DNA of 37,847 nucleotides from an uncultured Oscillospiraceae bacterium (GTDB lineage Bacteria > Bacillota > Clostridia > Oscillospirales > Oscillospiraceae), in the NCBI GenBank assembly GCA_944387205.1, contig CALXDZ010000116.1:1-37847 (forward strand). Reading direction: 5' to 3'. The translations under genes and the position numbers were made by a program. A model generated the notes under the pieces. It searched no databases and was not told the origin of the DNA. It was given only the letters and a program-made list of their open reading frames with translations. The first letter of the stretch is position 1, and each line of letters opens with the position of its first letter. Below are positions 3,272 to 30,149 of the stretch, one piece after another.

Positions 3272-3480
3272 ATTAAAATAGGGGATGGATGGTGCCAGAA
3301 TAAACTCTTTTTGTCAACTCCCTTTTCTTATTTCTTGTATTTCATATTTCTCAACTTGCTTGTATGGTGAGCCACTTTTTTACCTTGAAACTACCTTCCG
3401 AAGTGCCATTCCACTGTGCCAAAATGCCAAAATCATAAGCCTTCCGAAGTGCCAAAAATCCCTGGTGTTATACTTCAAAA
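3272..3480. repeat. TGGCA-containing repeat cluster at the island edge
   Basis: A 15-bp direct repeat, CCTTCCGAAGTGCCA, occurs at 3394-3408 and 3440-3454, exactly 46 bases apart. Between and around them the minus strand reads TTTTGGCA several times. This lies upstream of the AT-rich minus-strand genes and marks the change to GC-rich core sequence. It could be a binding array for the HTH protein encoded downstream, or the remnant of an attachment site. A TTGACA box is present on the minus strand near 3315, but no good -10 box sits at normal spacing. Confidence 0.5.
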
Positions 3481-3586: not shown

Positions 3587-6232
3587 TTACTTGCTCTCGG
3601 TCGCTCTGGGATTTTTTATAGCGGCCTGAGCGGCAGCCAAACGAGCGATGGGCACACGGAAGGGAGAGCAGGACACGTAGTCCAGGCCCACCTTGTGGCA
3701 GAACTCCACGGAGGAGGGGTCGCCGCCGTGCTCGCCGCAGATGCCCAGGTGCAGGTCGGGGTTGGTCTCGCGGCCCAGCTTGCAGGCCATGGCCACCAGC
3801 TTGCCCACACCCTTCTGGTCCAGCTTGGCGAAGGGATCGTTCTCATAGATCTTCTTGTCATAGTAAGCATCCAGGAACTTGCCGGCGTCGTCGCGGGAGA
3901 AGCCGAAGGTCATCTGGGTCAGGTCGTTGGTGCCGAAGGAGAAGAAGTCGGCCTGGGTGGCGATCTCATCGGCAGTCAGAGCGGCGCGGGGGATCTCGAT
4001 CATGGTACCCACCAGGTACTTCATGTTGGAACCGGCGGCCTTGATGATGGCGTCAGCAGTATCCACCACCACATCCTTGACGTACTTGAGCTCCTTGACC
4101 TCACCCACCAGGGGGATCATGATCTCGGGGACCATGGTCCACTCGGGATGCTTGGCCTGGACGTTCAGAGCGGCCTTGATGACGGCGCGGGTCTGCATGG
4201 CAGCGATCTCCGGATAGGTGACAGCCAGACGGCAGCCGCGGTGACCCATCATGGGGTTGAACTCGTGCAGGCCGGCGATGATGTTCTTGATCTCGGTCAC
4301 GGTCTTGCCCATGTCCTTGGCCAGCAGCTCAATGTCGGCCTCCTCGGTGGGCACGAACTCGTGCAGGGGGGGATCCAGGAAACGGATAGTGACAGGGCAG
4401 CCCTCCATGGCCTCATAGATGCCCTCGAAGTCACTCTGCTGCATGGGCTCCAGCTTAGCCAGGGCCTTTTCGCGCTGCTCCACGGTGTCGGAGCAGATCA
4501 TCTCACGGATGGCGGGGATGCGGTCCTCGTTGAAGAACATGTGCTCGGTACGGCACAGACCGATGCCCTGGGCGCCGAACTTGCGAGCCTGAGCGGCATC
4601 GTGGGGGGTGTCGGCATTGGTGCGGACCTTCAGACGGCGATACTTGTCGGCCCAGGCCATGACCCGGCCGAACTCACCGCCGATGGTGGCATCCACGGTG
4701 GGGATAGCACCGTCATAGATGTTGCCGGTGGAGCCGTCCAGGGAGATCCAGTCACCCTCGGAATAGGTCTTGCCGGAGAGCACGAACTTCTTGTTGGCCT
4801 CGTCCATCTTGATGTCACCGCAGCCGGAGACGCAGCACTTGCCCATGCCGCGGGCCACAACGGCAGCGTGAGAGGTCATACCGCCGCGAACGGTCAGGAT
4901 GCCCTGAGCGGCCTTCATGCCCTCGATGTCCTCGGGAGAGGTCTCCAGACGGACCAGGACCACCTTCTCGCCCCGCTCGGCCCAAGCCTTGGCATCCTCA
5001 GCGGTGAAGACCACCTTACCGGAGGCGGCACCGGGAGAAGCGCCCAGAGCCTTGCCGATGACCTCGCTCTTCTTCAGGGCCACGGCGTCGAACTGGGGAT
5101 GCAGCAGGGTATCCAGGGAACGGGGATCGATCATGGCAACAGCCTTCTTCTCGGAGATCTGTCCCTCGTCCACCAGGTCGCAGGCGATCTTCAGAGCGGC
5201 AGCGGGGGTGCGCTTGCCGTTGCGGGTCTGGAGCATATAGAGCTTGCCGTTCTCCACGGTGAACTCCATATCCTGCATGTCACGATAGTGATCCTCCAGG
5301 ATCTTGCAGACGTTTTCAAACTGAGCAAAAGCCTCGGGGAACTTCTCGGCCATCTGGCTGATGGGCATGGGGGTCCGGACACCGGCCACCACGTCCTCGC
5401 CCTGGGCGTTGGTCAGGAACTCACCGAACAGCTTCTTCTCACCGGTGGCGGGGTTGCGGGTGAACGCAACGCCGGTGCCGCAGTCGTCGCCCATGTTGCC
5501 GAAGGCCATGGACTGGACGTTGACGGCAGTACCCCAGGAGTAGGGGATATCGTTGTCGCGGCGATAGACGTTGGCGCGGGGGTTGTCCCAGGAACGGAAC
5601 ACGGCCTTCACGGCGCCCATCAGCTGCTCCTTGGGATCGGTGGGGAAGTCCTCGCCGATCTTGGCCTTGTACTCGGCCTTGAACTGGCCGGCCAGCTCCT
5701 TGAGGTCCTCAGCGGTCAGCTCCACGTCCTGGGTGACGCCGCGGGCTTCCTTCATCTGGTCAATGAGCTCCTCGAAATACTTCTTGCCCACTTCCATGAC
5801 CACGTCGGAGTACATCTGGATGAAGCGGCGATAGCAGTCCCAAGCCCAGCGGGGATTGCCGGACTTCTTGGCCAGCACTTCCACCACGGTCTCGTTCAGG
5901 CCCAGGTTCAGGATGGTGTCCATCATGCCGGGCATGGAGGCCCGGGCGCCGGAACGGACGGAGACCAGCAGGGGGTTCTCCAGATCGCCGAACTTCTTGC
6001 CGGTGATGCCTTCCATCTTGGTGATGTATTCCATGATCTCAGCCTGGATCTCCGGGCTGATCTGACGGCCATCCTCATAGTACTGGGTGCAGGCCTCGGT
6101 GGTGATGGTAAAGCCCTGGGGTACGGGCAGGCCGATGTTGGTCATCTCGGCCAGGTTGGCGCCCTTGCCGCCCAGAAGCTCACGCATGTTGGCATTGCCT
6201 TCAGTGAACAGGTAACAATACTTTTTTGCCAT
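3587..6232 (-). CDS. ppdK: Pyruvate, phosphate dikinase
   Basis: The enzyme interconverts pyruvate, ATP and phosphate with phosphoenolpyruvate, AMP and pyrophosphate; anaerobes use it for glycolysis with PPi or for gluconeogenesis. At 881 residues it has normal length. The N-terminus (KYCYLFTEGNANMRELLGGK) starts the ATP-grasp nucleotide domain. The phosphohistidine motif GGMTSHAAVVARGMG places the swivelling histidine at residue 455, and the PEP/pyruvate TIM-barrel domain ends with GICGEHGGDPSS, whose cysteine is about residue 832. The ATG at 6232 is chosen over an upstream in-frame start because GGAGG lies 10 bases before it and MAKKYCYLF is the family N-terminus. It is monocistronic, with its own promoter (6306-6334) and terminator. 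Confidence 0.98.
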   Translation of the reverse strand: MAKKYCYLFTEGNANMRELLGGKGANLAEMTNIGLPVPQGFTITTEACTQYYEDGRQISPEIQAEIMEYITKMEGITGKKFGDLENPLLVSVRSGARASMPGMMDTILNLGLNETVVEVLAKKSGNPRWAWDCYRRFIQMYSDVVMEVGKKYFEELIDQMKEARGVTQDVELTAEDLKELAGQFKAEYKAKIGEDFPTDPKEQLMGAVKAVFRSWDNPRANVYRRDNDIPYSWGTAVNVQSMAFGNMGDDCGTGVAFTRNPATGEKKLFGEFLTNAQGEDVVAGVRTPMPISQMAEKFPEAFAQFENVCKILEDHYRDMQDMEFTVENGKLYMLQTRNGKRTPAAALKIACDLVDEGQISEKKAVAMIDPRSLDTLLHPQFDAVALKKSEVIGKALGASPGAASGKVVFTAEDAKAWAERGEKVVLVRLETSPEDIEGMKAAQGILTVRGGMTSHAAVVARGMGKCCVSGCGDIKMDEANKKFVLSGKTYSEGDWISLDGSTGNIYDGAIPTVDATIGGEFGRVMAWADKYRRLKVRTNADTPHDAAQARKFGAQGIGLCRTEHMFFNEDRIPAIREMICSDTVEQREKALAKLEPMQQSDFEGIYEAMEGCPVTIRFLDPPLHEFVPTEEADIELLAKDMGKTVTEIKNIIAGLHEFNPMMGHRGCRLAVTYPEIAAMQTRAVIKAALNVQAKHPEWTMVPEIMIPLVGEVKELKYVKDVVVDTADAIIKAAGSNMKYLVGTMIEIPRAALTADEIATQADFFSFGTNDLTQMTFGFSRDDAGKFLDAYYDKKIYENDPFAKLDQKGVGKLVAMACKLGRETNPDLHLGICGEHGGDPSSVEFCHKVGLDYVSCSPFRVPIARLAAAQAAIKNPRATESK

Positions 6233-8839: not shown

Positions 8840-9733
8840 ATGGGAAAATTTGACGGCGTGCTGCTGGCCAGCGATTTTGACAACACCCTGGTGTGGACCG
8901 AGGACGCCCTGCGTCAGGGCACCGCCATGCCCCAGGTGCCCGAGCGGAACCGGGAGGCCCTGCGCTATTTCATGGCCAATGGCGGCCGCTTTGCCATCTC
9001 CACCGGCCGGGCGCTGCCGGCCTTCCGCCGCTTTGTGGACCAGGTGCCCATGAATGCGCCGGGGGTGGTGTGCAACGGCGCCGGGCTCTATGACTTTCAG
9101 GCGGACCGGTACATCTACACCGCTCTGCTGGACGATGTAGTCCGGGACCGGGGCATGGAGATCCTCAAGGCCTTCCCCACCGTGGGCTGTGAGGTCTACC
9201 ACGAGAGCGACAACGTCCACGCCGTCCAGCCCAACCACTGGACGAAAAAACACCAGCATCTGACCCATGCGCCTTACCGGGAGATGCCGGACCTTTGGTC
9301 CATTCCCGAGCCCTGCGCCAAGCTGCTCTTTGAAGAGGAGATGCCGGTGCTGACTCGGATCGGAGAGTACCTGAAGGAACGGGGCTGGGCGGAGGACTAT
9401 GAGCTGATCTTCTCCAGCGATCATCTGCTGGAGCTCACCGCCCGGGGCGCCCACAAGGGAGGCATGGTGCTGCGGCTGGCCCAGCTGCTGGGCATCGAAC
9501 GGGAACATATCTACTGCATCGGCGACCATGCCAACGACATCCCCATGCTGGAGGTGGCGGCGGAGGCTTTCGCCCCCGCCAACTGTATCGATGCGGTCCG
9601 GGCCACAGGCGCCCGGATCCTCTCCCCCTGCCAGGACGGCGCAGTGGCCGACTTGGTGGAGATCCTGGACCGGCGCTACGGTGCCGACAGGGGAGAGACA
9701 GGAAAGGAGGAAGAGAAGAAATGTCAGCCGTGA
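8840..9733 (+). CDS. Cof-type HAD-superfamily phosphatase
   Basis: A 297-residue HAD hydrolase of the Cof (IIB cap) type, expected to dephosphorylate sugar phosphates, nucleotides or cofactors in the cytosol. Motif I is SDFDNTL (nucleophile D12, acid/base D14), motif II is the STGR segment, and motif IV is CIGDHANDIPML near residue 230, giving the magnesium ligands. The start has GGGGAGG eight bases upstream. It follows ricT by 115 bases; that gap contains GC-rich hairpins but no clear T-tract, so readthrough from holB-ricT is possible. The last 13 bases overlap a short membrane-peptide gene. The true substrate cannot be deduced. Confidence 0.9.
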   Translation: MGKFDGVLLASDFDNTLVWTEDALRQGTAMPQVPERNREALRYFMANGGRFAISTGRALPAFRRFVDQVPMNAPGVVCNGAGLYDFQADRYIYTALLDDVVRDRGMEILKAFPTVGCEVYHESDNVHAVQPNHWTKKHQHLTHAPYREMPDLWSIPEPCAKLLFEEEMPVLTRIGEYLKERGWAEDYELIFSSDHLLELTARGAHKGGMVLRLAQLLGIEREHIYCIGDHANDIPMLEVAAEAFAPANCIDAVRATGARILSPCQDGAVADLVEILDRRYGADRGETGKEEEKKCQP

Positions 9734-9855
9734 TCGGAGGACTGTGCGTACTGGTGGTGCTGCCGCTGTGCGGTGCGCTGCTGCTGGGTGACGCGGAGCG
9801 GACCATGGACTCGGGAATGAAAAAGACCGGGAGGTTCAAGAAGCGCCGCAATTAA
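9721..9855 (+). CDS. 44-residue single-pass membrane peptide
   Basis: A short gene with an excellent ribosome site (AAGGAGG at 9704-9710, 10 bases before the ATG) overlaps the end of the phosphatase gene in another frame. Residues 5-22 (IGGLCVLVVLPLCGALLL) form one membrane helix, and the tail ends in the strongly basic KKTGRFKKRRN, predicting the N-terminus outside and the C-terminus in the cytosol. A strong terminator follows immediately, so it is the last gene of the operon. I recognise no family. The ribosome site, overlap and terminator make it credible despite its size. Confidence 0.7.
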   Translation: MSAVIGGLCVLVVLPLCGALLLGDAERTMDSGMKKTGRFKKRRN

Positions 9856-9869
9856 ATCATGGATACGTT

Positions 9870-9930
9870 CCGGCGGGAAGTTTGCTCCCGCCGGTTTCTT
9901 TTGCCCCTTCGGCTTTTTAGCCGGAGGGGC
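9870..9930 (+). terminator. Terminator pair after the holB operon
   Basis: CCGGCGGGA (9870-9878) pairs with TCCCGCCGG (9886-9894) and is followed by TTTCTTTTG, a plus-strand terminator. A second 12-bp hairpin lies at 9903-9914 / 9919-9930 with a TTTT loop. Confidence 0.8.
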
Positions 9931-23796: not shown

Positions 23797-24744
23797 TCAG
23801 TCGTCCCAGTCGTCATCAGCGTCGTCGCGGTCATCATCCCAGTCGTCGTCATAGGCGTCATCATAGGCGTCATCAGCGTCGTCGCGGTCGTCATCCCAGT
23901 CATCGTCATAGATGTCATCAGCATCGTCGCGGTCGTCATCCCAGTCGTCATCATAGGCGTCATCATAGGCGTCATCAGCGTCGTCGCGGTCGTCATCCCA
24001 GTCATCGTCATAAATGTCATCAGCATCGTCGCGGTGGTCTACATCCACTTCGGTGACCTTTCCGGTGACGGCGTTGACCTCATATTCATATTCCACGCCA
24101 TCCAGGACAAATTCCACCTCATAATCGCCGTCATCCAGGTCATATTCCTTCTGTACGAACTGCAGATCCGTGCGGTCCAGCTGAGTGGCAAGGATGCTCT
24201 CGGCAGTTTCGGCATTGATATACCCCTTGCTGCCATAAGTGTCGTCATAATTATCATCGTCCAGAGCAATGGTCTGGGAGCCGATGTGCTGCTGCTCTAC
24301 CACGCTGCGGATCTCCCGGGTGAGCTCCTCCAGAAAATCATCGGAGGGATATCTAGAGCCCCGCTCCACCTTGAGGATGATGTTCCGGGCGTGGCCGTCG
24401 ATGGTGGTGTCGAAGTAGCCCGCCTGGTGGATGGAGCTCACCAGCTCATGGACCACTGTGCGGCAGGGCTGCCCGGCATAGTCCCCGGATGCGTCCAGGA
24501 TCTTGCGGCCATCCTCGTTCAGGGCATTGAGACAGACCACATTGCCGTCCTTGTCATATTCCATTTCGATTTCGGGATTGACGCTTAAAAGCAGAGTTCC
24601 CGCAGCATCGGAGACCGTATCCGGAGAATCGGCAGAGGGAGCAGGAGCCGTAGTGCCTGCAGAGCCGCAGGCAGCCAGAGAGGCGGTGAGAAGCACAGCG
24701 GTGAAGGTGAGTCCGAACAGCTTCGTCAGATGATTCTTTTTCAT
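23797..24744 (-). CDS. Lipoprotein with RsgI-like motif, PepSY domain and Asp-rich repeats
   Basis: A 315-residue exported lipoprotein. The signal peptide ends in the lipobox LAAC (C26). Residues 50-145 resemble the extracellular middle domain of RsgI anti-sigma factors: LLLSVNPEIEMEYDKDG with an Asn-Pro pair (N56-P57), then ALNEDGRKILD. Residues 165-240 look like a PepSY domain (INAETAESILATQL, then EFVLDGVEYEYEVNAVTGKV). The rest is a tandem acidic repeat built from DDADDIYDDDWDDDR and DDADDAYDDAYDDDWDDDR units. No cytosolic anti-sigma segment is present. The ATG has AAAAGGAG upstream. It lies downstream of sigI-rsgI, after a promoter-like motif shared with sigI. I infer a SigI-regulated cation- or cationic-peptide-binding surface protein; the ligand is unknown. 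Confidence 0.8.
   Translation of the reverse strand: MKKNHLTKLFGLTFTAVLLTASLAACGSAGTTAPAPSADSPDTVSDAAGTLLLSVNPEIEMEYDKDGNVVCLNALNEDGRKILDASGDYAGQPCRTVVHELVSSIHQAGYFDTTIDGHARNIILKVERGSRYPSDDFLEELTREIRSVVEQQHIGSQTIALDDDNYDDTYGSKGYINAETAESILATQLDRTDLQFVQKEYDLDDGDYEVEFVLDGVEYEYEVNAVTGKVTEVDVDHRDDADDIYDDDWDDDRDDADDAYDDAYDDDWDDDRDDADDIYDDDWDDDRDDADDAYDDAYDDDWDDDRDDADDDWDD
23819..24030 (-). repeat. 102-bp tandem repeat encoding the Asp-rich tail
   Basis: Two full copies of a 102-bp unit (23819-23920 and 23921-24022) and the start of a third (from 24023) encode a 34-residue acidic unit. The copies differ at only a few positions, mostly silent, so they are recent duplications or are kept alike by recombination. 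Length variation between strains is expected. Confidence 0.85.
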
Positions 24745-24802
24745 GAAAGTCTCTCCTTTTCACAAGTTGTTTGGGCTGGGGCCTTGTTTGTTTACACTGG
24801 AA

Positions 24803-24834
24803 GGATACGATAGGGGGTCAGAAAAAACGGGGGC
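24803..24834 (-). promoter_or_regulatory. Candidate SigI promoter of the lipoprotein gene
   Basis: On the minus strand GCCCC is followed, after exactly 20 bases, by CGTATCCT (complement of 24802-24809). The same two boxes at the same spacing precede sigI. A C-rich -35 and a CGWA-type -10 recall the SigI promoters described in Bacillus and Clostridium, as I remember them. An A/T-tract lies just upstream. Confidence 0.6.
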
Positions 24835-24859
24835 GGCGAAAAAATTTTTTTCTTTTTGG

Positions 24860-25738
24860 TCAATCATCCTCTCCATCATCGTCATGGCCGTCATTGCTGT
24901 TCCAATCATCCTGGTCATCGTCATCATCGTGACCATCATCGTCTCGGTCATCATCGTCGTCTCGGTCATCAGTCTGCGTGTTGGTTTCCTGCCGCCCGGG
25001 TTCGGAAACAGTGCCGGGAACCAAAACAGATGGATCTTCCGGGACCTGTTCGTTGTCCCGGCCGTCGTCCTGATCGTCTTCATCATCGTCGTCATTGCCA
25101 TCATCGTTCTGATTCTGATCCTCCGTGCCGGAGGGAACCACGGGGATCACCACCTGGGACTGTTCGGAGGGAGGCGCTGCAGGCCGGGGGCCTATGGAGA
25201 TGACCACCGTGTCACCATAGCGGTCCTGCAGCTGCTGCCGGACCAGCTGCTCCTCCTGCTGTTGCCAGTCGTCATCCTGACTGCTGACGGAGATGGAAAT
25301 GGTATCGCCATCGGAGAGATAGCCCAGAGCAATGGCACGCTCCACCAGCTCCTCCACAGCGGTATCCCGGCTTTTGCCCCGGTAATCATAGCCGTCTACC
25401 AGCTGCCGGCCATCTTCATTGATTCCCTCCAGGCCCACCACCCGCTCTGAGCGGCTGATAGACAGCTCCACATCGGGGTTGATCTGAATGCGGAGCACGC
25501 CGTAGGTCAAATAGTGAAAACGGTAGCCCCCCAGAAGCACCAGGCAGATGCAGGCGGCTGCGGCCAAGGGAGCCAGACGTCGCAGGGGCCGGCGAAGGGG
25601 CTGAGGCTGCCGCAGGGGCATGACCTGTTCCACCCGCTGCCCCACCTGATAGTGGAAATTGACCACCTTATAAAAGCGTCCTTCCTGGTCCAGAACCACT
25701 GCATAGGCAGGGTGGACCTCCATCACCAGATAGCTCAC
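24860..25738 (-). CDS. rsgI: RsgI-type transmembrane anti-sigma factor with Asp-rich ectodomain
   Basis: A 292-residue single-pass membrane protein that should hold SigI inactive. Residues 1-52 are the cytosolic anti-sigma domain (MEVHPAYAVVLDQEGRFYKV), 55-72 the membrane helix, and 80-170 the RsgI middle domain outside the membrane, with IQINPDVELSIS carrying an Asn-Pro pair (N87-P88); family work describes self-cleavage at such a site. From about 185 the chain is Pro/Gln linker and then runs of aspartate (DDDDEDDQDD, DDRDDDDDRDDD) to the end. In cellulolytic clostridia this position carries carbohydrate-binding modules instead. The GTG start overlaps the sigI stop by four bases, behind GGGAGGGAGG. 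Confidence 0.9.
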   Translation of the reverse strand: MSYLVMEVHPAYAVVLDQEGRFYKVVNFHYQVGQRVEQVMPLRQPQPLRRPLRRLAPLAAAACICLVLLGGYRFHYLTYGVLRIQINPDVELSISRSERVVGLEGINEDGRQLVDGYDYRGKSRDTAVEELVERAIALGYLSDGDTISISVSSQDDDWQQQEEQLVRQQLQDRYGDTVVISIGPRPAAPPSEQSQVVIPVVPSGTEDQNQNDDGNDDDDEDDQDDGRDNEQVPEDPSVLVPGTVSEPGRQETNTQTDDRDDDDDRDDDGHDDDDDQDDWNSNDGHDDDGEDD

Positions 25739-26472
25739 ATCCTCCCTCCCTTCTCGCCGGAAGTCATTTGGCGCAGATGCTCCCGAATGATCTCATAGCC
25801 ATTGGTAAAAGCCAGCAAAATCGCAGCCAGATAGTTCCGGTGGCGTTCCATGGTCTTTCGGTCTGTTCCGGAGCCCAGCGCCAGCTCACTGACCGGAAGA
25901 CGCCCGCTGCGGACAAACCGTTCCAACAGATGAGGATTGGCCCGGGCATGGGCCAGCACCCGGTGGCAGGCTGCCAGAGTGCGGGACTGCCGGGGGCAGC
26001 TCTCCGCCACATCGGAAAAGGAGATGCCCATGGCAGCCAGCTGCCGGCCGAATTCGGCGATCTCCTTCCGGCTGGCCTCCTGAAGATCCCGGGCCTCTAT
26101 TTCGTCCCGGCTGTCGGGGATGGAGTCCAGGAGCTCCTCTGAGCCCTCCTCTTCCCGAGGGACGTTCAGAGAGAGCTGGCCGCTGTGCCGACTTTCCCGG
26201 CGGTAGTGGTCCACCAGGCGGTTGCGGATGGCTCTGGCGGCATAGGACAGGAAGGCACCGCGGCCCCGCTCATAGCCCAGAATGGCTTCATAAAAGGCCG
26301 CCATGGCGATGCTCAGCTCATCCTCGGGCGGGCCTCCGTGCGTGGGGGCTGCCGACTTGAGGACTTCGCTTCGGATAAATCCCATATACTGCCGGATCAG
26401 CCCGTCTGCGGCCTCCGGATCTGCTTTTGCCTGATAGACCTGAGAGACGATCTCGTGTTGAGTGCGCACCAT
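25735..26472 (-). CDS. sigI: RNA polymerase sigma factor SigI
   Basis: A 245-residue SigI-family alternative sigma factor. The sigma-2 region includes YMGFIRSEVLKSA, ELSIAMAAFYEAILGYERGRGAFLSYAARAIRNRLVDHYRRE, in which the last part is the -10 recognition helix. The unusual C-terminal SigI domain (about 150-240) has SELALGSGTDRKTMERHRNYLAAILLA, the family's DNA-reading segment. It is directly coupled to rsgI, its expected membrane-bound inhibitor. SigI factors respond to heat, envelope stress or external polysaccharides in different species. The ATG has GGGAGG seven bases upstream. A promoter-like motif shared with the lipoprotein gene (26501-26533) suggests autoregulation. Confidence 0.93.
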   Translation of the reverse strand: MVRTQHEIVSQVYQAKADPEAADGLIRQYMGFIRSEVLKSAAPTHGGPPEDELSIAMAAFYEAILGYERGRGAFLSYAARAIRNRLVDHYRRESRHSGQLSLNVPREEEGSEELLDSIPDSRDEIEARDLQEASRKEIAEFGRQLAAMGISFSDVAESCPRQSRTLAACHRVLAHARANPHLLERFVRSGRLPVSELALGSGTDRKTMERHRNYLAAILLAFTNGYEIIREHLRQMTSGEKGGRM

Positions 26473-26501
26473 CTCCAGTCCCTCCCTTTTGCTTATCCAT
26501 A

Positions 26502-26533
26502 GGATACGAAAGATAAAAACCGATTTTCGGGGC
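26502..26533 (-). promoter_or_regulatory. Candidate autoregulatory SigI promoter of sigI-rsgI
   Basis: On the minus strand GCCCC (complement of 26529-26533) is followed after 20 bases by CGTATCCT (complement of 26501-26508), identical in both boxes and spacing to the motif before the lipoprotein gene. The sigI ATG is about 30 bases further on. Confidence 0.6.
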
Positions 26534-28917: not shown

Positions 28918-29619
28918 ATGAAAAAAATTGTAAGTGCCCTTTTAGCTATTGTGATGAGTCTCAGTCTTTGCACCTCCACGCTTGCTTTGAACAGTGAGAT
29001 GCAGGAGGTTTTGGAGGAGCGGGTAGAAACTGAAATTGTGCGAGAAAAAGAAGCCATTTTTGATCTGGTTTATGCACAGCTTGAAGCGCAGGATGCAGAA
29101 AGCATGATGCCGATTTACGAAGCAATTCTGGGTCCACAGATTGAGGCAAATGTCCGTCAGGAATACGGGATGCTTGCTCAAACAGAAGAGCAATATATTT
29201 TTGAAGAGGGTGGAATCCTAAAATATGAGACGTTGGGGGCTTATGTGCTACAAACCTATATGACTCCTGAGAAGTTTGATGACTACCTCGTGGGTCAACT
29301 GAATCCGTTTGGAGAGATTACGATGGGTTTGATTTGGGAAGGACTCAGCAGAGCAGCAGGACTTGCCTCCACATATTTGAAAACTATTGTGGGGGCATGG
29401 GGATATGCGTATGATTTATTAGCAGCAGTAAATATGATAATTAGTTACTATGCTATACAAGAGGTGGAGGCAAACGGCAGTTACGGAGTAACCGTGGCGG
29501 TGCAGTCGGGAGCGGACCGGAGCAGCGTTCTGATCCCGTGGGAAAATCCTTTTAGAGCTGTAGTTCCTCCTGTTGCGTCTAATGTTGATTCAGTGGATTT
29601 TAAGGAACACGATATTTAG
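28918..29619 (+). CDS. Orphan secreted protein, 233 aa
   Basis: I recognise no family. Residues 1-23 are a clear signal peptide (KKIVSALLAIVMSLSLCTST, cleavage near LALNS), without a lipobox, so the protein is released or wall-associated. Residues 25-110 are a Glu/Gln-rich helical region; 130-180 contains hydrophobic glycine-bearing helices (MGLIWEGLSRAAGLAS, then GAWGYAYDLLAAVNMI) that could insert in membranes. The C-terminus (IPWENPFRAVVPP onward) looks extended. No cysteines remain in the predicted mature part. The gene is distinctly AT-rich compared with both neighbours, which suggests recent transfer. The ribosome site is modest (AAGGAAGG, about 13 bases away), but the promoter is a perfect consensus. 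Confidence 0.8.
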   Translation: MKKIVSALLAIVMSLSLCTSTLALNSEMQEVLEERVETEIVREKEAIFDLVYAQLEAQDAESMMPIYEAILGPQIEANVRQEYGMLAQTEEQYIFEEGGILKYETLGAYVLQTYMTPEKFDDYLVGQLNPFGEITMGLIWEGLSRAAGLASTYLKTIVGAWGYAYDLLAAVNMIISYYAIQEVEANGSYGVTVAVQSGADRSSVLIPWENPFRAVVPPVASNVDSVDFKEHDI

Positions 29620-29705: not shown

Positions 29706-30149
29706 ATGCAGGAGAGGAAAAAGCGGCGGATCCGGGCCGGGGTGCTGGCGCTGGACCTGGCGTCCCTGGGGTGCTTTGGATGGACGGTGATCCAGGGCGA
29801 AGCGCTCTTGGATACGGTGGGTTCCTGGACCATGGTGTGGGCCCTGGTGCTGCCTGGGGCGGTGATCTTTGCCGCCGCCATACTGGGCCTTGCGGCGGAG
29901 AACAGGGACGGCGTGTGGGCGGAGGCATTTCCCAAGCTTCCCCGGTCCTGGAACAAGTGGTTCACGATTTGTGAGCTGGCGGCGCTGGCCCTCCTGCTGG
30001 CTTTGATCGTGACTGCCTCCAAGAGGAGCTGGTGGCCGACTCCCTGGATGTTTCTGGCGATACCGGAGTTTGATGTGGTGGCGCGGATGATCCGCCGCGG
30101 CGCAGGCTTCTGGTTCCACCGGAAAAACCAGCCGCTTGAAAAATCATAG
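29706..30149 (+). CDS. Small membrane protein, three helices
   Basis: A 147-residue protein of unknown family. It has a basic N-terminus (QERKKRRIRAG), then membrane helices at about 11-29, 40-63 and 87-106, followed by an aromatic, tryptophan-rich and basic C-terminal segment (KRSWWPTPWMFLAIPEFD). AAAGGAGG is eight bases before the ATG. It is GC-rich like the core, and ends at its own strong terminator. A function cannot be given. The position after an AT-rich secreted gene is probably chance, since base composition changes sharply between them. Confidence 0.7.
   Translation: MQERKKRRIRAGVLALDLASLGCFGWTVIQGEALLDTVGSWTMVWALVLPGAVIFAAAILGLAAENRDGVWAEAFPKLPRSWNKWFTICELAALALLLALIVTASKRSWWPTPWMFLAIPEFDVVARMIRRGAGFWFHRKNQPLEKS

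Follow-up and report, generated by a model that had tools for sequence, protein, structure and literature searches.

A predicted sigma-I/RsgI locus of an uncultured Oscillospiraceae bacterium paired with a lipoprotein that resembles the outer part of its anti-sigma factor

The SigI-RsgI pair of Bacillus subtilis is reportedly a wall-homeostasis system, as papers citing the 2022 work of Brunet have it, and we know of no PepSY lipoprotein partner and no CotH/VTC operon belonging to it. According to the sources available, RsgI of that species is cut constitutively, its halves hold together as long as the wall is intact, and its disordered tail senses wall defects and is proposed to extend into the wall as a probe of its integrity (PMC10202637, PMC13059805). 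In the published outlines of the Clostridium thermocellum cellulosome-sensor systems, a sigma-I factor is combined with a membrane anti-sigma factor that has an autocleavage domain, for which cleavage is published (PMC12203970), and a variable outer tail; the promoters comprise an A-tract, together with specificity bases upstream, and CGWA as the −10 element (PMC10575876). Here we describe a locus predicted to be of this kind in 37,847 nucleotides of DNA from an uncultured Oscillospiraceae bacterium (assembly GCA_944387205.1, contig CALXDZ010000116.1, positions 1 to 37,847; hereafter “the window”). Unlike in C. thermocellum, where carbohydrate-binding or enzyme domains mostly make up the outer module, RsgI of this family carries a polyanionic tail or one of [ST]xY repeats, and the locus adds a lipoprotein with the same outer domain. 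The sequence indicates that sigma-I probably drives both its own gene and this lipid-anchored likeness of its sensor.

The three genes lie on the minus strand. The sigI gene (25735–26472) encodes a sigma-I family RNA polymerase sigma factor of 245 residues with a Pfam Sigma70_r2 match (33.8 bits), and its ten top NCBIfam matches are all SigI models, scoring up to 146 bits and each under the curated cut-off. Overlapping it by 4 nucleotides, rsgI (24860–25738, GTG start) encodes a transmembrane anti-sigma-I factor of 292 residues, assigned by RsgI_M (85.3 bits) and by RsgI relatives in the PDB; RsgI_N scores 24.4 bits, slightly under its cut-off of 25, and a transmembrane segment read from the sequence precedes the RsgI_M outer domain. 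After a spacing of 115 nucleotides follows the lipoprotein gene (23797–24744), whose product of 315 residues consists of a lipobox (Cys26), RsgI_M (61.5 bits, cut-off 25.3), PepSY (24.5 bits, cut-off 24) and an aspartate tail. The initial annotation had the overlap, the adjoining gene and their coordinates right, as well as the RsgI-like motif and PepSY domain of the lipoprotein. Having a lipobox and no Pfam match to RsgI_N, this protein shares only the outer domain with RsgI; by its sequence it is not an RsgI anti-sigma factor, as the cytoplasmic sigma-binding domain and the transmembrane helix are both missing.

Both proteins contain a predicted autocleavage site. In RsgI this is Asn87-Pro88 (25475–25480, minus strand), within INPDVE, where Pro88 aligns to the first residue of chain B of both 8u9o and 8hep, two RsgI structures whose deposited C-terminal chain begins at that proline. 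For the lipoprotein, conservation and the position of a turn in the structural model point to Asn56-Pro57 (24574–24579, minus strand). Asn-Pro is present in 65 of the 66 lipoproteins of relatives, and in all 14 lipoproteins from later-added loci whose sequences were read; its invariance in our alignment A2 is by construction, because that alignment took in only lipoproteins in which a script had detected Asn-Pro, so that 65/66 is the fair count. An AlphaFold2 model of the lipoprotein, built from a 50-row alignment of the window and 49 relatives (mean predicted local distance difference test score 90.6), places Asn-Pro at the turn joining the first two strands. By sequence the lipoprotein matches B. 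subtilis RsgI 8t9n at E 0.0028, and the top Foldseek matches of the model are chains of the same entry (E 1.3e-6 and 2.3e-6), followed by a Clostridioides difficile lipoprotein (4exr, E 0.015) and RsgI2 (8heq, E 0.049, probability 0.99). On this evidence it is a predicted lipid-anchored protein with the outer autocleavage domain of RsgI, PepSY and a tail of like charge, and it may itself be cut at Asn-Pro.

The tails are strongly acidic, as the initial annotation had recognized. Residues 201–292 of RsgI (24863–25138, minus strand) include 36 Asp among 92 positions (net charge −39), and residues 241–315 of the lipoprotein (23797–24024 with the stop codon, minus strand) include 49 Asp among 75 and neither Ser nor Thr (net charge −45). 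Among open reading frames (ORFs) of at least 100 residues in the window, these two alone reach at least 18 Asp per 60 residues. A tandem DNA repeat at 23812–24039 (102-nucleotide unit, 2.2 copies, 96% match) makes up part of the lipoprotein tail, which by its sequence is thus in part a recent tandem expansion. Across 59 loci the RsgI and lipoprotein tails resemble each other more within a locus than between loci (4-mer cosine 0.313 versus 0.159, kinship not removed), and so they do among 18 loci with motif-free tails (0.331 versus 0.25, kinship likewise not removed), in keeping with the match first seen in the window. Such pairs are both Asn/Asp in L105, both DDDQ in L112 and both DDWDD in L098. 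Within the window’s genus, the RsgI outer parts of other SigI clades are rich in Pro, Ser, Thr and Ala and not in Asp in the four of eight loci that were readable (L004, L006, L007, which is cut at the locus end, and L010). WDD or YDD forms the C-terminus of 37 of the 55 complete lipoproteins of relatives, and the window’s lipoprotein ends in WDD. We also considered calcium-binding repeats and rejected them, since both window tails and the tails of four relatives stayed under every Pfam cut-off, with just two chance-level rows (Extensin_1 and DUF6479).

A scan for sigma-I promoters uncovered candidate sites before both transcription units. That of sigI, CCCCG-AAAA...CGTATCCT with a 19-base gap (26501–26532, minus strand), combines an A-tract with CGWA in front of the sigma factor’s own gene, and that of the lipoprotein gene, CCCCG-TTTT...CGTATCCT, has an 18-base gap (24802–24832, minus strand). 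The strict pattern CCCCG-N17..19-CGTA[AT] occurs upstream of 63/82 sigI and 62/67 lipoprotein genes if the duplicate locus L031 is included, and of 62/81 and 61/66 without it, as compared with 0.08 and 0.04, respectively, for letter shuffles of the upstream stretches. Two copies precede 18 of the 62 lipoprotein genes, and a near form is found for 16 of the 19 sigI misses and all five lipoprotein misses; one further sigI miss has just 8 bases of upstream sequence. Because sigI and the lipoprotein gene have this type of promoter in common, sigma-I probably drives both, and the suggestion in the initial annotation that the lipoprotein is the regulated partner is very probably correct.

The predicted regulon appears small. 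In the window’s genome (2.42 Mb) the pattern has three matches and the control none; the third lies on the opposite strand within a 358-residue ORF on another contig, so the sites before sigI and the lipoprotein gene are the only convincing ones predicted in this incomplete genome. Across the 81 loci L032–L112 the strict pattern was assigned to sigI 59 times, to the lipoprotein gene 85 times and to other places 22 times, 17 of which we read as sigI or lipoprotein promoters with the gene cut, short or unlabelled and five as chance. The lipoprotein-type pattern gave 31 matches in 24 whole genomes (one in the control), with 26 preceding lipoprotein genes and two preceding sigI; of the remaining three, one falls inside a glycosyltransferase-like ORF (by eye) and two stand before PepSY-like proteins. 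Four of these 24 genomes showed no match to the pattern. Lipoprotein genes situated apart from sigI retain the promoter in 5/5 cases read (L133, L137, L152–L154). Taken together, the scans and these retained promoters suggest a regulon made up of sigI-rsgI and acidic surface proteins with PepSY. Of the two sigma-I-type promoters that precede PepSY-like proteins in the scan of 24 genomes, one (L161, about position 3437, minus strand count) stands before an exported protein whose tail is a long Asp-Arg-Trp stretch and the other (L162, about position 3613, plus strand) before a lipoprotein.

Contigs were scanned with a three-row SigI alignment and the best 80 of 338 loci retained, of which 73 are evaluable (the other seven end directly after rsgI). 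A lipoprotein gene adjoins sigI-rsgI in 70 of the 73, downstream in 57, divergent in 12 and upstream in one. The count of adjacent lipoproteins that the initial annotation had called for therefore shows a conserved pairing, and its concern that the tails might be random or absent in relatives and the lipoprotein gene unlinked is answered by this linkage and by acidic or [ST]xY tails that recur in many lineages, of which chance is a poor account. The lipoprotein contains RsgI_M in 66 of the 70; the other four, of Faecalibacterium type, have PepSY and, at the end, no more than an acidic stretch. In these four (L051, L086, L088, L089) the sigma-I promoter is kept, RsgI_M is lost and the lipoprotein is short, with PepSY and an Asp/Arg/Trp tail that is almost gone in L089. 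The module is sparse in the window’s genus, where SigI of more than 50% identity occurs only in the window’s genome and one other (G018) of 37 genomes, many of them incomplete; a lipoprotein profile at 1e-10 matches 41/295 genomes of the order, a figure that includes weaker matches to RsgI or other PepSY proteins.

Many relatives carry, after the lipoprotein gene, genes for a VTC domain protein (PF09359), DUF4956 (PF16316) and a CotH kinase (PF08757). Where the lipoprotein gene is divergent, VTC and DUF4956 go with it in 12/12 loci and CotH in 11, L096 ending first. VTC and DUF4956 were rejected as necessary partners, given that in L032 CotH follows the lipoprotein gene immediately, without either of them; all three genes are present in the other 36 CotH-linked loci. 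The N-terminal segment is hydrophobic in all 36 complete CotH proteins, and the six whose starts were read begin with net positive charge, so the kinase domain probably lies outside the membrane. Asp281 and Asp306 (L032 numbering), which we take to be catalytic positions of the kinase, are invariant in the same 36. In the window the gene beyond the lipoprotein gene encodes a convergent FtsX permease, so the cassette is not there, and CotH was not found in the window’s genome, which is 86% complete (the search covered CotH, not VTC or DUF4956).

The tails differ with this cassette. Lipoprotein tails of CotH-linked loci are built from DTDYGPNADGVTDY-like, TNYDDNG-like or GDSGYDD-like repeats with [ST]xY in common, and we termed a tail motif-bearing if it had at least two [ST]xY per 100 residues. 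Of 82 rows, 30 could not be judged, since either the contig stopped short of where CotH could show or the lipoprotein tail was unreadable, and L031 was dropped as a duplicate of L046. Motif-bearing lipoprotein tails then occur in 36/36 CotH-linked and 0/15 unlinked loci (Fisher 3e-13, uncorrected for kinship), and motif-bearing RsgI tails in 33/37 and 0/15. Unlinked tails are mostly Asp, with Ser and Thr together at 2% or less in 13 of 15, the exceptions being L061 and L111 (12 and 10%). For loci cut by contig ends, genome-wide searches found CotH for 5/5 motif-bearing cases tested (L044, L052, L053, L054, L102) and for 0/3 Asp-tailed ones (L048, L049, L083). A further 20 loci were fetched, 16 of them new (L140–L143 duplicate L041, L070, L087 and L058): repeats are present in 8/8 that are CotH-linked (L155 by eye), in 0/4 unlinked loci with room for the cassette (L144, L152, L153, L157) and in 0/2 cut ones (L154, L159), while L156 is motif-bearing and ends before CotH could show and L158 is tailless. 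Two genomes provide inner controls (L061/L133 and L111/L137), each with an Asp tail beside sigI without CotH and a [ST]xY lipoprotein with CotH elsewhere.

The association also holds at the level of DNA and, within limits, of phylogeny. Of 20 genomes, 15 contain DNA that encodes DTDYGP, with 133 occurrences in all (control 0), always at these loci as far as contig and position could be matched, and five Asp-tailed genomes, including the window’s, contain none; synonymous differences between the repeat copies argue for selection on the peptide. CotH linkage changes 11 times on the SigI tree, and 11 pairs are available on all branches for the link between CotH and lipoprotein tail; the five independent pairs on well-supported branches all agree (p 0.0625). 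For the RsgI tail alone the tree signal is weak, two to three of five pairs agreeing and none opposing. CotH as a universal [ST]xY partner was rejected, since ten other VTC/DUF4956/CotH places in the same genomes (L123, L125, L127–L131, L135, L136, L139) lack the lipoprotein and any [ST]xY-rich neighbour (at least five motifs in 60 residues); the link thus belongs to one kind of cassette and is not a general rule. These ten places form a second type, mostly with a distant VTC. Genome-wide absence of CotH explains the Asp tails only partly, as CotH is present elsewhere in 7/14 tested genomes whose Asp-tailed loci are not linked to it, in two of which it adjoins a second, [ST]xY-tailed lipoprotein (L133, L137).

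We propose that the locus encodes an autoregulated sigma-I/RsgI envelope switch in which the lipoprotein acts as a feedback buffer and an anionic surface layer, a reading to which we assign a probability of roughly 45%. The outer domain of RsgI would be cut at Asn-Pro, its halves staying together as in known RsgI, and the disordered acidic tail would extend into the wall, where changed anchoring or load could part the halves. RseP-type proteolysis would then free sigma-I, raising the levels of sigma-I and of the lipoprotein. The lipoprotein, which shares the cleavable domain and has a similar tail, would occupy or restore whatever the RsgI tail monitors, thereby damping the signal, and would double as an anionic layer on the surface. 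In lineages with CotH in the operon the charge of the tails would probably come from phosphorylated [ST]xY repeats, and in the window’s lineage directly from Asp; the matched polyanionic tails would then be phosphorylated in one case and Asp-built in the other. We infer that the lipoprotein either feeds back on the envelope response or executes it, negative feedback through the same wall sites or ligand being the simplest role for its likeness to the RsgI ectodomain.

Several observations weigh against this proposal. The feedback role is read from protein architecture only, as promoter use and tail phosphorylation are read from motifs; SigI falls short of the NCBIfam cut-offs, and with the genome 86% complete other sigma-I targets may be missing. 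Three sigI loci (L050, L059, L078) have no lipoprotein beside rsgI, the four Faecalibacterium-type loci hold only a short PepSY lipoprotein lacking RsgI_M, the lipoprotein of L093 has no Asn-Pro and that of L155 no PepSY, and L157, which is sigI-linked, shows no such promoter. Four of the 37 CotH-linked loci have an RsgI tail without the motif, only five independent pairs are well supported, and the Fisher values ignore kinship.

Some of these exceptions suit a reading in which the lipoprotein serves solely as an effector of sigma-I. It would be an anionic protein of the surface or wall whose tail buffers cations or replaces an anionic wall polymer, and that tail would resemble the one of RsgI because both proteins work in a common wall environment. 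PepSY may inhibit a protease or a wall hydrolase. Loss of RsgI_M in four loci that retain PepSY and an acidic stretch (nearly gone in L089) fits an output without feedback, as do the sigma-I-type promoters, the further genes with such promoters that encode PepSY proteins with no RsgI_M seen by eye, and the control of wall-growth genes ascribed to B. subtilis sigma-I (PMC7478892, as far as that source goes). Nevertheless, Asn-Pro kept in all but one of the lipoproteins of relatives would be odd for a mere anchor, and the tail motif is common to RsgI in most CotH-linked loci; we regard output alone as a real possibility, though one we would not favor. A phospho-tuned circuit outside the cytoplasm strikes us as unlikely: here membrane-anchored CotH would phosphorylate tandem [ST]xY repeats of both the lipoprotein and the RsgI tail, VTC and DUF4956 would make polyphosphate and pass it outward as phosphoryl donor, and RsgI would gauge the lipoprotein layer by how its own tail is modified, with lineages that lose the kinase, the window’s included, hard-wiring negative charge with aspartate.

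The initial annotation had instead proposed that the polyaspartate tail of RsgI responds to a chemical signal (Ca2+, Zn2+, polyamines or cationic peptides), with the lipoprotein as the corresponding binder, and had pointed to a neighbouring Bce-type module that also deals with cationic peptides. The strong negative charge of both tails agrees with this; however, Pfam recognized no known metal-binding repeat, and the Bce neighbour is not conserved, its permease having no homologue at E 1e-20 among the ORFs of L031–L112. Disordered wall probes are equally possible for acidic tails, which need not be ligand-binding sensors given what is reported for B. subtilis RsgI, and a chemical sensor seems to us improbable. 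Of that earlier interpretation, regulation, pairing and tail match thus stand and the Bce role falls, while the promoters, the autocleavage sites and the CotH gene of relatives had gone unnoticed. Very improbable, and disfavored, is that the tails are functionless low-complexity expansions, neutral products of repeat slippage. The 102-nucleotide tandem unit is of the kind that slippage would leave, yet tails persist in most relatives, covary with CotH and match within loci, the repeat copies differ by synonymous codons, and DTDYGP occurs at no other place in the 15 genomes.

Parts of the relatives’ cassette have been described in other settings. Gram-positive Pel loci contain genes for a polyphosphate polymerase, DUF4956 and CotH side by side (PMC7112168), the same three gene kinds, absent from the window; unlike in the relatives, the trio is there joined to Pel polysaccharide genes, and the account available mentions neither sigma-I nor a [ST]xY lipoprotein. 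The gene list of Clostridium perfringens NELoc-2 shows a sigma-I-like gene as a neighbour of VTC genes and CotH (PMC2879425); the text available draws no connection between these genes and mentions no RsgI-like lipoprotein. These two papers were what a literature search on pairs among CotH, the VTC domain and DUF4956 returned; no paper combining RsgI and PepSY was found in the literature covered, and no title among the matches listed joins sigma-I to the cassette. In that literature, as far as its texts extend, no substrate is assigned to non-spore CotH kinases or to the bacterial gene pairs of VTC and DUF4956. The locus family could therefore offer a concrete candidate substrate, tandem [ST]xY repeats on a lipoprotein putatively driven by sigma-I and on its anti-sigma factor. 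Loci that lack the kinase, including that of the window, are natural controls with plain aspartate tails. The swap to kinase-accompanying repeats in relatives hints at a role for the tail, and a predicted regulon limited almost entirely to sigma-I and a protein resembling its sensor makes a compact system for studying how the tails of RsgI perceive the wall.

Elsewhere in the window, an apparently exported protein (28918–29619, plus strand) and its neighbour (29706–30149, plus strand) have no Pfam match at 1e-3. Other contigs of the same genome encode further anti-sigma-like proteins with RsgI_M. On contig 12 (L116/L120, about 9504–9905) one stands beside an extracytoplasmic function (ECF)-type sigma factor and also has PepSY-like repeats (both by eye), so that RsgI_M and PepSY are paired there in a membrane anti-sigma factor. 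On contig 8 (L117, 1297–2979) an ECF-type sigma factor (by eye) and an RsgI_M anti-sigma factor adjoin a small exported protein whose DADGxGxCDN repeats resemble, by eye, calcium-binding loops.

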